From Dysgonomonas sp. 25 (lineage in GTDB: Bacteria > Bacteroidota > Bacteroidia > Bacteroidales > Dysgonomonadaceae): a stretch of DNA of 64,000 nucleotides. The stretch covers positions 1-64,000 of the forward strand of contig NZ_QVMN01000010.1 of assembly GCF_010501075.1 (NCBI RefSeq). The letters run 5' to 3'. Below the pieces are notes generated by a model. The model searched no databases. It was not told the DNA's origin and saw only the letters and a list, made by a program, of their open reading frames with translations. Below are positions 14,161 through 63,773 of this stretch, piece after piece (position 1 is the first letter of the stretch; each line of letters starts with the position of its first letter). Both the position numbers and the translations under genes were made by a program.

Positions 14161-14347
14161 CACCTCCCCCCAAGCCCCTCCTACAGAGGGGGAGCAGATA
14201 GACTTTATCAAACAATAAAAATTAAAAATACATACTTCACTAAGCCTCCCTATGGGGCAGGTCTGGAGGGGCTACAAAATCAACAACTATTTATTCATTT
14301 CATCTTTTCCTATTACCCCCTCTGTAGGAGGGGACAGGGGAGGTGAT
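14161..14347. repeat. C/G-rich palindromic block upstream of FISUMP A
   Basis: Three segments of alternating C-runs and G-runs: 14161-14195 (CACCTCCCCCC ... AGAGGGGGAGC), 14243-14273 (GCCTCCC ... GGAGGGGC) and 14313-14347 (TACCCCCTCTGTAGGAGGGG, then ACAGGGGAGGTG). The first and last can pair with each other and each can fold on itself. Similar blocks occur at 46750, 61951 and 63680, always beside a FISUMP gene. The open frame running through this block has no protein-like character. Confidence 0.75.
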
Positions 14348-14362
14348 TAATTTTTTTATGAT

Positions 14363-16225
14363 ATGAAAACTATTTTAACACAGGCTATCATGCTTATAGC
14401 CTTATTCACAACAACCGCCCTGCAAGCGCAGGTAACTATCGGGAGTAATCAAGCGCCGAATAAAGGAGCTTTACTCGATTTGACACAAGGAAGTGCTACA
14501 ACCAAAGGGTTGGCACTGCCTCGTGTTGCGCTCACAGACAAAGACAAGTTATATCCCATGTTATCAAGCGGTTATGCCGTCACCGAAGATGCAGCACATA
14601 CGGGGCTTATCGTTTATAATACTGCCCTATCATGTGACTTTGGCAAAGGAGTTCATATATGGGATGGTAATGAATGGCAAGCCCTACGTCCTCTCGAACC
14701 TTCCGAGTTGAACCTTAGTAAAGGCTACTTCGATTTGCCCAGTGGAAAAGATGCACGTTCTTTAACAGCTCAAACATTGACAGTGACTTGGGATGACGGA
14801 TTAACCCCTACATGGACAGCAGCAGCTTCGGGAGGATTGAGTGCTGTTCTGTTTACAGGAAACCCAATACCTACACTGACAAACTCTCCTCAGAGTATCA
14901 GCCTTTTGCCTGATGCAATGACCATAAATGCTTCTTCACCATGGGCAAGTAGACAAACTGACCTGACCTTTAGCCTCTGTGGGCAAACGAAGACAGCAAT
15001 CTTGAATCAGACCAACTATGTGCTCTGGGCACTCGGAAAGGCAACTAATAGTCAGATTATTTATACTACCACAGCGAGTGGTAGTATCCCTGTACGCAGT
15101 AATGCTACATGGCAGGCTGTTCTCTCCGGAGCAGGAACATTGGCTACGCTTACTCCCTCCAGTGGAGGAACAGATCTGAAAGACGGTAGCAGCCCGGCTG
15201 CCATTAATACCTCCTACAGTGCAGGAACAGGCAGCAGGTATGACTATACAGATATTACTTTTACCGATACAAAGAATCCTAAACGCTTCCACGATGTAAC
15301 AGTATCAGTTCTTAATTGTGGCAGTACAGGGAACGACCCGAGTATGACAGCATGGGCACAACGTGCAGGCTTTACTATTGCTCAAATTAACAGTATATCT
15401 GCCGGTGGAACCCATGCGACTACACAACCTAACGGTATACAACTACACAAAGACCAGAATGGTAATATTTTCCTCTCAGGCAATTTTGGTGCAACGGCCG
15501 GGCGTTGGATGCTGAATAACTTGGCAGCAACAAGCTATGCCAGTAATGTTACGCATCCGTATCGCACCCTGACAGGACCTAATTACAACAGCGGGATGGC
15601 ATATAATACCGCCTACTGGGGCTATCCAGATGCGAATATTACCACTTACAACAACAATCCGCGCATTGGCCGCATATATACATGGGACGCTGCCACTGCC
15701 GGGAAAGGTGGTTCTACAGGACAGGTCAGCATAACTGATGGTGAGAACATAGCCGGCACACCCGCCCGTGTGCAGGGTATTTGCCCTAACGGATGGCATT
15801 TACCCAGTGATGCAGAATGGACAGATCTGGAATTGGCAATAAATAGTAATACCAGTCAATATAGCGGCATAGCTGATGCTAACGCCACTATCACCATTGG
15901 AGCAACAGATTGGCGTGGAAAAACCGCTAATGGTCATGGTAAGGGTATGAAAGATATCTGTCCGGTACCTACGCTATCCACTGCCAGCGACGGAGCCTCT
16001 AATATTATCTCCTCTACTGTCACTCCGGGGATGAATATTCTTCTTGTAGGACTGGCTTCCAACGGGTTGTCATTTGACTACGGCAACTACTCGTGGTTCT
16101 GGACTGCAAGCAGCAACACTACTACTGAGTCATGGATTCGGGGCTTCTCTAGATCGGCCACGACAGTCGGTCGGGATAAGAAGCGTCGCTTCGCCTTATA
16201 CTCCGTCCGCTGCAAGAAGAATTAA
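14363..16225 (+). CDS. FISUMP-domain surface protein A, with inserted Ig/BACON-like region
   Basis: A 620-residue exported protein. Residues 1-22 form a signal peptide (LTQAI core, cleaved near QAQ). Residues 23-115 are an N-terminal domain shared with proteins B and C (QVTIGS, GALLDL, KGLALPRV, VYNT, WDGNEWQ). Residues about 117-340 are unique to this copy and look like two beta-sandwich (BACON/Ig-like) repeats. From about 375 to the end is the FISUMP (Fibrobacter succinogenes major paralogous) module, with WMLNNLA, GICPNGWHLPSDAEW and a final WFWTAS ... YSVRCKKN. FISUMP modules adopt a C-type-lectin-like fold. The roughly 30 residues between WTAS and YSVRC differ almost completely from B and C. 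A ligand-binding or adhesin role is inference. It is flanked by repeats on both sides. Confidence 0.85.
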   Translation: MKTILTQAIMLIALFTTTALQAQVTIGSNQAPNKGALLDLTQGSATTKGLALPRVALTDKDKLYPMLSSGYAVTEDAAHTGLIVYNTALSCDFGKGVHIWDGNEWQALRPLEPSELNLSKGYFDLPSGKDARSLTAQTLTVTWDDGLTPTWTAAASGGLSAVLFTGNPIPTLTNSPQSISLLPDAMTINASSPWASRQTDLTFSLCGQTKTAILNQTNYVLWALGKATNSQIIYTTTASGSIPVRSNATWQAVLSGAGTLATLTPSSGGTDLKDGSSPAAINTSYSAGTGSRYDYTDITFTDTKNPKRFHDVTVSVLNCGSTGNDPSMTAWAQRAGFTIAQINSISAGGTHATTQPNGIQLHKDQNGNIFLSGNFGATAGRWMLNNLAATSYASNVTHPYRTLTGPNYNSGMAYNTAYWGYPDANITTYNNNPRIGRIYTWDAATAGKGGSTGQVSITDGENIAGTPARVQGICPNGWHLPSDAEWTDLELAINSNTSQYSGIADANATITIGATDWRGKTANGHGKGMKDICPVPTLSTASDGASNIISSTVTPGMNILLVGLASNGLSFDYGNYSWFWTASSNTTTESWIRGFSRSATTVGRDKKRRFALYSVRCKKN

Positions 16226-45042: not shown

Positions 45043-45443
45043 GTCGATTGATTTTTAACAATTCTGTATTGATTAACAAAAATACATAAAAGTACTTATA
45101 CCATTAACGTAATAAAACTGATTAAGGTTCAAAGATTCTTAAAATTCACTTTTCTTTTCACTCTAAGCGATCTCTGTATGATAGCACTCTGCAATTTCTC
45201 ACAAGCAGCCAACGGCATAAAAAATCGCGAAAAAGGGTGTGTTCGTCGCTGAAATAGGGCGTTTGGTCTATTATTCCTCCCAATGCCGGAAATGGAACTT
45301 ATTTTTGTGAGTAACTCGCGAATGGTGAAAATGTCGGAATATCACATACAACATGCTTATTTCTGGCAAACAGTGTATAGATTTGTTCTATCCCGCTTAC
45401 CATTTTATATATGCGCTCTATCACGTTAATTAATTTATATCGT
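45043..45443. other. Gap upstream of FISUMP B
   Basis: This 401-base divergent gap holds the promoter for the minus-strand operon and a plus-strand TATTTTTG at 45300-45307 that could serve FISUMP B with a leader of about 130 bases. No CA tract or C/G-rich block lies here, unlike upstream of FISUMP A and C. No gene is seen; the minus-strand frame through 45299-45676 is a shadow. Confidence 0.5.
45077..45084 (-). promoter_or_regulatory. -7 promoter element for the ArsC/Spx-tamB operon
   Basis: Minus-strand TATTTTTG (TAnnTTTG), 35 bases upstream of the ArsC/Spx-like start codon. Confidence 0.5.
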
Positions 45444-46655
45444 ATGAAAAAAATCCTGACACAGGCTATCATTATATTAGCCTTACTTATTACAGTAACC
45501 TCCACCCTGCGCGCGCAGGTAACTATCGGATCGGGCGAAGCGCCCAATGCCGGGGCACTATTGGATCTGAAGGAAGCAACAAATGGTACATCAAAGAAAG
45601 GATTGGGGCTTCCACGGGTAGAACTGACCAATCTGAAACCTACGACACCTGCCGGGCTGGCGCAATCCATCGGCAATGCCTCGGGCAGCTACAATCTAAA
45701 CGAGCATATCGGGATGATAGTCTATAATACCAAAGAGGTTGCCTTCAACAATATTACTTGCAAAATGGAAGGAGCAGGCCCTATTGGCTTATACGTTTGG
45801 GATGGTGGACAATGGCAACTATTGGGCAAAAAAGGAGGAGCAGGCACTGATGTACGGACAATAACCGACGATGGCACACAGGTAACAATTAGCTACAATG
45901 GTGAGACTACCAGCTACCACTACAGCGCATTCGGCGATGCGGGTTATTGGATGACCGAAAATTTGGCTACTCAATACTTGCCCGATGGTACGCAGCTACC
46001 CAAGCATACGGCAAATAGCTATACCGAGCCTCAATTTCGTATTCCTGCCAATCAGTCCAGTGTACAAGGTAAACAAGGACTACTCTACAATTGGCCTGCT
46101 GTGATGAATAAGAATATTTGTACTGCCAATATTGACCAAGGACAGATAGCAGGGGCTACACCCGGAGCAAACGAAGTAGAAACTCTCAGCGGCACTATTC
46201 AGGGTATTTGCCCTATAGGCTGGCACGTTCCATCGGATAGAGAATGGAATGATCTGGAACGGGAAATCACTACTAAGATGAACCAATATACTCAAACCCC
46301 ACTACCGGCTCTAAGTTGGACTGCCGAATGGGAAACCTTTGCAAACTATCGTGGTGCCACGATTGACGGTCATGGCAAGGCTATGAAGGCTAAAGACTCA
46401 GTTCTCAACGGTTACAACTCTAACGGTGATAGCAAGACGGCACATGACGGCGGCTTCGACGTGCTCATAGTTGGTTACGCTTACAATGGCTCAGCCTCTT
46501 ATTTTGGTAACTCCGCGGGTTTTTGGTCGGCGAGTAGTGGCGGTACTAACGTTGCGTGGCGCCGACACCTCATCAGTTCTTCTACTACCACACAAGTACA
46601 CAGAGGCGCAGTCAATCGCTACTACCTGTTTTCTGTTCGTTGCAAGAAAGACTGA
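45444..46655 (+). CDS. FISUMP-domain surface protein B
   Basis: A 403-residue exported protein with a signal peptide (MKKILTQAIIILALL..., cleaved near RAQ). The N-terminal domain is shared with A and C (QVTIGSGEAPNAGALLDL, LGLPRVELTNLKPTTP, LYVWDGGQWQLL; about 27-135). The C-terminal FISUMP module runs from about 165 (YWMTENLATQYLPDG) to the end, with GICPIGWHVPSDREWNDLE and FWSAS ... LFSVRCKKD. Between FWSAS and FSVRC lie about 34 residues nearly unrelated to A and C except for a central AW.R. The start is at MKKILTQ, not the in-frame ATG 11 codons upstream, because it gives a clean signal peptide equal to the paralogues. It is probably a lectin-like surface protein. Confidence 0.85.
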   Translation: MKKILTQAIIILALLITVTSTLRAQVTIGSGEAPNAGALLDLKEATNGTSKKGLGLPRVELTNLKPTTPAGLAQSIGNASGSYNLNEHIGMIVYNTKEVAFNNITCKMEGAGPIGLYVWDGGQWQLLGKKGGAGTDVRTITDDGTQVTISYNGETTSYHYSAFGDAGYWMTENLATQYLPDGTQLPKHTANSYTEPQFRIPANQSSVQGKQGLLYNWPAVMNKNICTANIDQGQIAGATPGANEVETLSGTIQGICPIGWHVPSDREWNDLEREITTKMNQYTQTPLPALSWTAEWETFANYRGATIDGHGKAMKAKDSVLNGYNSNGDSKTAHDGGFDVLIVGYAYNGSASYFGNSAGFWSASSGGTNVAWRRHLISSSTTTQVHRGAVNRYYLFSVRCKKD

Positions 46656-61950: not shown

Positions 61951-61990
61951 ACCTCCCCCCGGCCCCCTCCATAAGAGGGGGAGCGAGGGG
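61951..61990. repeat. C/G-rich block upstream of FISUMP C
   Basis: ACCTCCCCCCGGCCCCCTCC followed by ATAAGAGGGGGAGCGAGGGG, an imperfect palindrome like those at 14161, 46750 and 63680. Confidence 0.7.
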
Positions 61991-62452: not shown

Positions 62453-63676
62453 ATGAAAAGAACAATCTTGACACAGGCTATTATCATATTAGCCTTCTTA
62501 ACAACAACAATCGGCCTGCATGGGCAAGTAACTATCGGGAGCAATACACCACCACGGGCGGGGGCACTATTGGACCTGACCGAGGGTGCAACAACCACTC
62601 ACGGATTGAATATGCCTCGCGTAGAGCTAACTAACCTGAAACCTACTACTCCTGCTGAACTATCGGCCTCTATCGGCGGAAGTGGCAATTGGGTATTGAA
62701 CGACCATACAGCATTGGCTGTATACAACACCAAAGCTGACCATTGTGCAGTCGACCCTATTTACGAAGGGCTGTATGTTTTCGATGGGACTGAATGGCAA
62801 CTAATAGGACAGCCGGGTATCTCTGCTGCTGTTTACGAAGTTATTGACCCTCGCGACAATCAGGTTTACTTAGCCCGTAACTTTGGAAGTACCGCTGGCG
62901 ACTGGATGTTGGAGAACCTCCGCTACGAACCGAAGGCTGCAGATGGCTATACAGGGTATCGTCATGATGCAGGCATGATATCCAGTCCCTACACTGATAA
63001 ATACTGGGCTTATCCTTGGAAAGGGCCAACCGGTACAGGTGGAACATACTATCCTACCCAAGCCCAGGCCGACTGGGATCCACAGATGGGTATTCTTTAC
63101 AATTGGTATGCTGCAACTAACGGCGAAAATAGCGAGACAGTAGACCAGGGGCAGATAGCGGGCACTGTTCCCGGTGCGAATGAAGTAGAGGTCAAAAAAG
63201 AAACAAGTCCAGGAGCCAAAGATGGAAAAATCCGGGGTATTTGCCCACCCAACTGGCATGTACCTACCGACCGTGAATGGAATGAACTGGAAAAGGAACT
63301 CACCGAGCATGCTTCCAGCTATTCTGCTACGGCTAACAGCACATGGTCTTCTACCTGGGAAACGACAGCAGGTGGGCGTGGCCCTACCCTTGGTGAGGCA
63401 ATGAAGAGCGAGTGTGAGCTACCGGGCCATAACTACGGCTCTCCCAACGGCAAGAGCTTCTCTACGGCGCGGGGTGGCTTCAATGTAGTACTTACGGGCT
63501 ACGCCGGCACTGCCAAGGCACTCGATTACGGCTACATCGGCTACTTCTGGTCGGCGAGTGCCTACAGCAGCTACAATGCATGGGTCCGGTCTGTCCGTCG
63601 TAGCCTCGCGTTTGCAGGCCGTGGCCAGACCGGCTGCGGCAGCCTCTTCTCCGTCCGCTGCAAGAAAAACGACTAA
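62453..63676 (+). CDS. FISUMP-domain surface protein C, best candidate for a diversified variable region
   Basis: A 407-residue exported protein with a signal peptide (MKRTILTQAIIILAFL..., cleaved near HGQ). The N-terminal domain is shared with A and B (QVTIGSNTPPRAGALLDL, LNMPRVELTNLKPTTP, LYVFDGTEWQLI). The FISUMP module runs from about 145 (GDWMLENLRYEP) to the end, with GICPPNWHVPTDREWNELE and GYFWSAS ... LFSVRCKKND. Between FWSAS and FSVRC, 17 of 29 codons have the form NNC. In the 120 bases 63541-63660 I count 78 G/C and only 14 A, much richer in G/C than the surrounding genome. This is the pattern left by adenine-directed mutagenesis of an AAC-rich template. It is flanked by repeats on both sides and lies at the window's right edge. 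Confidence 0.85.
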   Translation: MKRTILTQAIIILAFLTTTIGLHGQVTIGSNTPPRAGALLDLTEGATTTHGLNMPRVELTNLKPTTPAELSASIGGSGNWVLNDHTALAVYNTKADHCAVDPIYEGLYVFDGTEWQLIGQPGISAAVYEVIDPRDNQVYLARNFGSTAGDWMLENLRYEPKAADGYTGYRHDAGMISSPYTDKYWAYPWKGPTGTGGTYYPTQAQADWDPQMGILYNWYAATNGENSETVDQGQIAGTVPGANEVEVKKETSPGAKDGKIRGICPPNWHVPTDREWNELEKELTEHASSYSATANSTWSSTWETTAGGRGPTLGEAMKSECELPGHNYGSPNGKSFSTARGGFNVVLTGYAGTAKALDYGYIGYFWSASAYSSYNAWVRSVRRSLAFAGRGQTGCGSLFSVRCKKND

Positions 63677-63679
63677 TCC

Positions 63680-63773
63680 ACCTCCCCCCTACCCCCTCTA
63701 CAAGAGGGGGTAATAAAATAAAACAATTTTATCTATATAATAGCCTCCCCTTGTTGGGGGAGGTTGGAGGGGG
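63680..63773. repeat. C/G-rich double-hairpin block downstream of FISUMP C
   Basis: Hairpin 1 (63690-63712) is TACCCCCTC-TACAA-GAGGGGGTA and hairpin 2 (63744-63763) is CCTCCCC-TTGTT-GGGGGAGG, followed by TTGGAGGGGGTG. This is the same order as at 46750, starting only about 15 bases after the stop codon. A structured hairpin just downstream of the variable region is a feature of DGR targets, but these could simply be terminators. Confidence 0.8.

Follow-up and report, generated by a model that had tools for sequence, protein, structure and literature searches.

The FISUMP C gene, close to the right end of the window (the whole 64-kb stretch of Dysgonomonas sp. 25 DNA that was analysed), is probably a dispersed, retired target of a diversity-generating retroelement (DGR) like the one that persists on contig C5 of the same genome. 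It was not written from the present C5 template, because 38 of the 128 non-A positions differed between the two, and no second template was found in the genome by DNA searches with the C end and the template repeat (TR) or by a TR peptide search.

The DGR of contig C5

Analysis with the RVT_1 profile revealed two reverse transcriptases (RTs) in the genome, one on contig C5 and one on contig C32. The C32 RT (C32:137113-137661) belonged to the retron St85 family (243.5 bits, cut-off 235). The C5 RT (396 aa; RVT_1, 68.5 bits) carried the motifs IGNLTSQ and YVDD, as read by eye. IGNLTSQ is a form of (L/I/V)GxxxSQ, which is described as the DGR RT motif in PMC3521204, and together with YVDD and the A-biased pairs of TR and variable repeat (VR) beside its relatives it identifies the C5 enzyme, as judged from sequence, as an RT of the DGR clade. 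The sequence-only reading had placed the RT and template for FISUMP C elsewhere, perhaps just beyond the right edge of the window. The genome did contain a DGR RT, a bAvd-like gene and an AAC-rich TR, but on another contig rather than just to the right.

Contig C5, locus L031:4936-7741: complete DGR with an A-only TR/VR pair, the sole DGR found in the assembly

The order in this locus was FISUMP target, 112-aa bAvd-like gene, AAC-rich TR and RT, and the TR showed homology with the FISUMP C end. The 112-aa product scored 46.9 bits against bAvd (cut-off 40) and 55.3 against the NCBIfam Avd, under the cut-off of 80. The TR and the VR of the cis target differed at 20 of 53 A positions and at none of 124 non-A positions; when the first 170 bases were compared, 21 of the 22 differences were at A and the remaining one was located just past the coding VR. 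The same finder returned TR/VR candidates at 36 of the 54 loci that carry C5 RT relatives in other genomes, some of the 36 being chance or repeat pairs (e.g. L154), which showed that the finder works. Viral contigs gave no match when searched with FISUMP C and seven distant RT relatives when searched with the RT.

The end of FISUMP C and the C5 template

62453..63676 (+): FISUMP C gene, 407 aa, with a C-terminal FISUMP domain
63500..63667 (+): variable-repeat-like segment, homologous to the C5 TR (TR peptide match, 45% identity; ungapped codon alignment)
63560..63646 (+): NNC-rich core of 29 codons between FWSAS and FSVRCKK (codon count)
61964..61980 (.): CCCCTC..GAGGGG repeat copy upstream of gene C, the same as past its stop
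63690..63712 (.): 10-bp inverted repeat TACCCCCTCT / AGAGGGGGTA, directly past the FISUMP C stop codon

FISUMP C scored above the curated cut-offs of both PF09603 (74.8 bits, cut-off 33.9, residues 150-403) and TIGR02145 (64.6 bits, cut-off 41.65) and belongs to this family (Fib_succ_major), the definition of which makes no hypermutation claim. A secretion-signal-like stretch was seen by eye at the N-terminus. The end of the gene aligned to the C5 TR without gaps and in register across the whole TR, with 111 of 190 positions identical in the ungapped comparison and the tail LFSVRCKK common to both. Mismatches were found at 33 of 54 A positions (61%) and at 30% of the non-A positions.

The counts reported for this end from the sequence alone were exact, with 17 of the 29 codons between FWSAS and FSVRCKK being NNC and 14 of the 120 bases at 63541-63660 being A. 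The minimum was 25 A per 120 bases in windows starting within the first 300 codons of the gene, and 23 of the 29 core codons were NNY. The earlier part of FISUMP C contained 25.5% NNC (n = 329 codons), and the binomial P for the excess in the core was 1.6e-4. As a composition control, 13,391 windows of 29 codons were scored in the 27 open frames of at least 300 codons on both strands of the 64 kb. At least 17 NNC codons were reached by 30 of them, 18 of which were inside gene C. NNC composition by itself proves little and is not unique to FISUMP C, because 5 of the 27 long frames, that of gene C among them, reached 17 of 29 somewhere. The telling evidence is positional, in that the NNY codons of FISUMP C sit at the AAY columns of the real template of the genome.

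The 10-bp inverted repeat that follows the stop codon may act as a terminator or belong to a dispersed repeat. A role as a DGR homing signal was not supported, since the repeat is dispersed and the C5 cis target had no such stem within 90 bases. Five CCCCTC..GAGGGG palindromic repeats were located in the 64 kb, at 14175, 14317, 46763, 61964 and 63693, and all five adjoined FISUMP genes (upstream of A, downstream of B and on both sides of C). Such repeats also lay beside the FISUMP gene C1:73424, and four in C4:1-16000 likewise adjoined FISUMP genes; two others, at C5:15479 and C5:15661, were near no FISUMP match.

NNY retention across the FISUMP paralogues

45411..46655 (+): FISUMP B, paralogue whose end resembles that of C, NNY at 18/19 TR-AAY columns (counted from the first M of the frame)
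14363..16225 (+): FISUMP A, variable-ended paralogue, NNY at 15/19, near the family average (counted from the first M of the frame)
C4:655-1905: C4a, FISUMP paralogue, NNY at 19/19 TR-AAY columns
C4:11851-12997: C4b, FISUMP paralogue, NNY at 19/19 TR-AAY columns

The FISUMP census of the genome gave 59 matches, two of which were one gene. The 58 places were read, and with two duplicated between contigs C3 and C32 there were 56 distinct genes, one of them (C54:23016) below the family cut-off. The two duplicated genes, at the start of C3 and the end of C32, had identical scores and ends, and their order was reversed between the contigs, which therefore overlap or repeat each other there. The columns used for the NNY analysis were the 19 codons that are AAY in the C5 TR, and with the cis target left out 55 genes were compared.

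A former target should keep NNY wherever a related template has AAY, and FISUMP C did so at 18 of the 19 columns (P = 0.0013 with fixed amino acids and no correction for the 55 genes). The gene C32:408975, like C4a and C4b, had NNY at all 19. Seven of the 55 genes, FISUMP C included, had NNY at n-1 columns or better, versus 1.07 expected with amino acids fixed (P = 0.0002), and the variance of NNY across the FISUMP genes was 2.4 times binomial. The third base at the TR-AAY columns was C 0.62, T 0.35, A 0.02 and G 0.02 in the seven high genes and A 0.19, C 0.23, G 0.15 and T 0.43 in the other 48, while at other VR columns the two groups were alike (Y 0.62 and 0.58, respectively). At codons where C, C4a and C4b, which are related by descent and not independent, all differed in amino acid, the third base was Y in 55 of 60 cases in the VR and in 10 of 18 in the body. 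Two of the seven high genes, FISUMP B and C11:411132, were individually non-significant (P 0.17 and 0.14), and the pooled excess was modest (705 NNY observed versus 664.6 expected, of 1001). The earlier proposal that the end of FISUMP C is a DGR variable repeat is partly supported, by the TR homology and the NNY pattern, but the rule that changes be confined to template A fails for this gene.

Decayed copies in a related genome

Among 25 genomes surveyed in the genus, an RT match at E 1e-20 was found in four, that of Dysgonomonas sp. 25 included. The DGR of Dysgonomonas sp. 521 (G018) had FISUMP-type cis and remote targets. Mismatches with its template were found at 25 of 67 A and 1 of 133 non-A positions in the cis target, and at 29 of 67 A and 2 of 133 non-A positions in a gene on another contig, which is a true remote target. 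Four further copies in G018 had non-A mismatches at 18/133, 20/132, 32/132 and 47/130 positions, and NNY was kept in the same copies at 22/24, 23/23, 18/23 and 21/24 columns, respectively. FISUMP C, by its non-A mismatches and its NNY retention, falls inside this decay series. It differed from the C5 and G018 systems in having no adjoining cassette and in failing the A-only test.

In another draft genome of the genus (G014), there were seven DGR RT matches along with 36 for FISUMP at E 1e-6 (loci L190, L193-L198 and L201-L207). Thirteen loci there resembled the G018 template, and six of the 13, with at most five changed AAY codons, may be templates themselves.

For comparison, 18 of the 32 FISUMP places in three genomes without an RT match at E 1e-20 were taken, and 17 ends were readable, that of L226 aligning poorly. 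NNY was found at no more than 16 of 19 columns in these ends, and none of the 17 reached n-1; by a hand calculation, the contrast with 7 of 55 fell short of significance (about 0.14).

Gene bodies and variable ends

The divergent ends on similar FISUMP bodies were the less ordinary part of the case. The body of FISUMP C was 81% identical in protein to that of C4b and 78% to that of C4a, with ends 32% and 36% identical, and in five FISUMP pairs the bodies were 78-91% identical and the ends 24-36%. In two pairs with bodies about 91% identical the flanks past the stop codon were near-identical, over about 100 bases in C1:85059 with C3:2037 and about 28 bases in C32:154140 with C56:304896; the ends of both pairs were 29-35% identical and showed no marked NNY excess. 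C4a and C4b, with bodies 88% identical, differed in the third base of six of eight tail codons, a sign of recombination in addition to drift. The decoupling of body and end exceeds what A-to-N mutation produces and suggests an exchange of whole ends.

These results bear on the view that diversifying selection and recombination among paralogues produced the ends, that no DGR ever acted, and that the NNC codons reflect codon usage and loop-type residues. Such an origin would account for the near-identical post-stop flanks, which resemble cassette exchange, and for VR identity hardly tracking body identity (Spearman 0.17, compared with 0.57 for body versus the preceding 110 residues, in 233 FISUMP pairs with bodies at least 40% identical). 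It would also fit the 45 of 55 non-cis paralogues with NNY below 0.89 (10 were at 0.89 or above), whose ends were yet equally variable, and the diverse FISUMP ends in genomes without a match to the C5 RT. However, the NNY excess was limited to the TR-AAY columns within the same genes and was above the fixed-amino-acid null, and the decayed G018 copies gave the same picture alongside a true remote target. We regard this explanation as somewhat unlikely.

The two processes may also have been combined, with a single DGR minting variable ends at one locus and recombination spreading the end cassettes over some 55 dispersed FISUMP genes; if so, FISUMP bodies and variable ends would evolve independently. 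The five pairs with similar bodies and dissimilar ends, the near-identical post-stop flanks and the graded NNY retention are compatible with this two-stage system. It is weakened by the fact that no two ends were alike (the highest end-to-end identity in the family was 52%) and that no recent copying of an end was caught, and it is put forward only tentatively, as a doubtful extension.

Search for a live template

The genome contains an RT of the DGR clade, as a current target requires. A template near-identical to the VR of FISUMP C, mismatches confined to template A (as seen in the C5 cis pair) and an adjoining cassette of avd, TR and RT were all lacking for this gene. Contig C1, of which the window is positions 1-64000, extends 22 kb further, and a cassette at this place, as suggested from the sequence alone, was rejected: no RT or TR match was found on C1, and none was seen among the ORFs of at least 120 aa in C1:62001-82000. 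The sequence-only reading had also taken FISUMP C for a diversified target, for which it expected a near-copy differing solely at adenines. No such near-copy was found in the genome, and by two criteria of that reading, this one and the non-A mismatches, FISUMP C is refuted as a current target.

FISUMP C might still be kept live by a second template, either absent from the assembly or too divergent for detection. The genome is a 58-contig draft of 98.86% completeness, remote targets can be served by a single RT, as G018 shows, and Y was still present at nearly all AAY columns of the gene. The searches argue against it. When the end of FISUMP C was used as a DNA query at E 1, 27 of the 28 matches (C included) were at the ends of FISUMP genes and the remaining one was a 24-base match on C21. 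The TR peptide matched 47 places, and a short frame (70 aa) was found only for the TR itself, the other 46, FISUMP C included, being in frames of at least 371 aa. Templates of other DGRs were compared in two sets, the first with 24 entries (the own TR, 20 of the 36 candidate loci and three from relatives; L179 and L200 are an identical template) and the second with 18 entries from the remaining 16 loci, leaving out the weak candidates of L202 and L203. None fitted FISUMP C better than the own TR, the next closest being that of Candidatus Symbiothrix L134 (99/192), and these templates were rejected as its source. A second template is quite improbable.

That the C5 template itself still writes to FISUMP C as a live remote target is hardly credible despite the same register and tail, since the non-A mismatches of the gene contrast with 0/124 in the cis target and 2/133 in the true remote target of G018 and the gene was not among the matches of the TR used as a DNA query at E 10.

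Proposed history and predicted fold

For FISUMP C as a retired target, we infer the following history. Mutagenic retrohoming from an AAY-rich template, a relative of the present TR, would have rewritten the last ~55 codons of its ancestor, with template A free to become any base and the third base of the AAY codons remaining C or T. The gene would then have lost its supply, either by a change of the template or by the copy no longer being recognised, and ordinary substitution would later have altered the non-A positions. The protein may be secreted or exposed on the surface, where the randomised residues would lie on a binding face.

An AlphaFold2 model of the last 285 residues had a pLDDT of 93.2 and a pTM of 0.92. 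The C-terminal domain is likely to be C-type-lectin-like, and the varied residues would then lie on the binding face, because the VIA-align rows for this model were mostly such domains, though under the Z 8 caution line; the best row, at Z 7.2 (rmsd 2.9, 105 aligned), was the Lcl domain of Legionella. Foldseek matched the model to a predicted viral FISUMP protein at 1.3e-10 and found nothing in the PDB at E 0.001, an absence that says little. The PDB sequence search with FISUMP C gave 0 matches.

Relation to known systems

Leftover and remote DGR targets are already known from Treponema and cyanobacteria, and the present genome is a further case with a large paralogue set. In T. denticola, leftover and remote targets of the TvpA type are reported, as dispersed VR genes of a lectin-like family, some in isolates without RT or TR, and some of these VRs were termed suspicious for excessive mutations (PMC4891356), much as in FISUMP C. 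Unlike FISUMP C, the leftover VRs described there depart from the known TR mostly at A, and the isolates have two to seven targets each (PMC4891356), in contrast to 56 distinct FISUMP genes here with one A-only target. The cyanobacterial CLec genes are likewise dispersed paralogues of DGR variable proteins with varying TR/VR similarity, though with other domain architecture (kinases and others) (PMC7517822). DGRs have also been reported with families of paralogous genes, with targets at a distance and with VRs changed at non-A positions (PMC3521204), as well as with multiple VRs and DUF1566 targets (PMC6642488), and a metagenome DGR survey, as described, would miss remote targets (PMC8144416). 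No literature joining DGRs with FISUMP or with Dysgonomonas was found by full-text search, outside which most subscription journals lie.

Our results suggest that the past reach of a DGR is readable from its fossils. Old targets escape the A-only test but may be recovered, and ordered by age, from the NNY kept at template-AAY codons. If the spreading of end cassettes were true, a single retroelement would supply one bacterium with a large repertoire of surface proteins.
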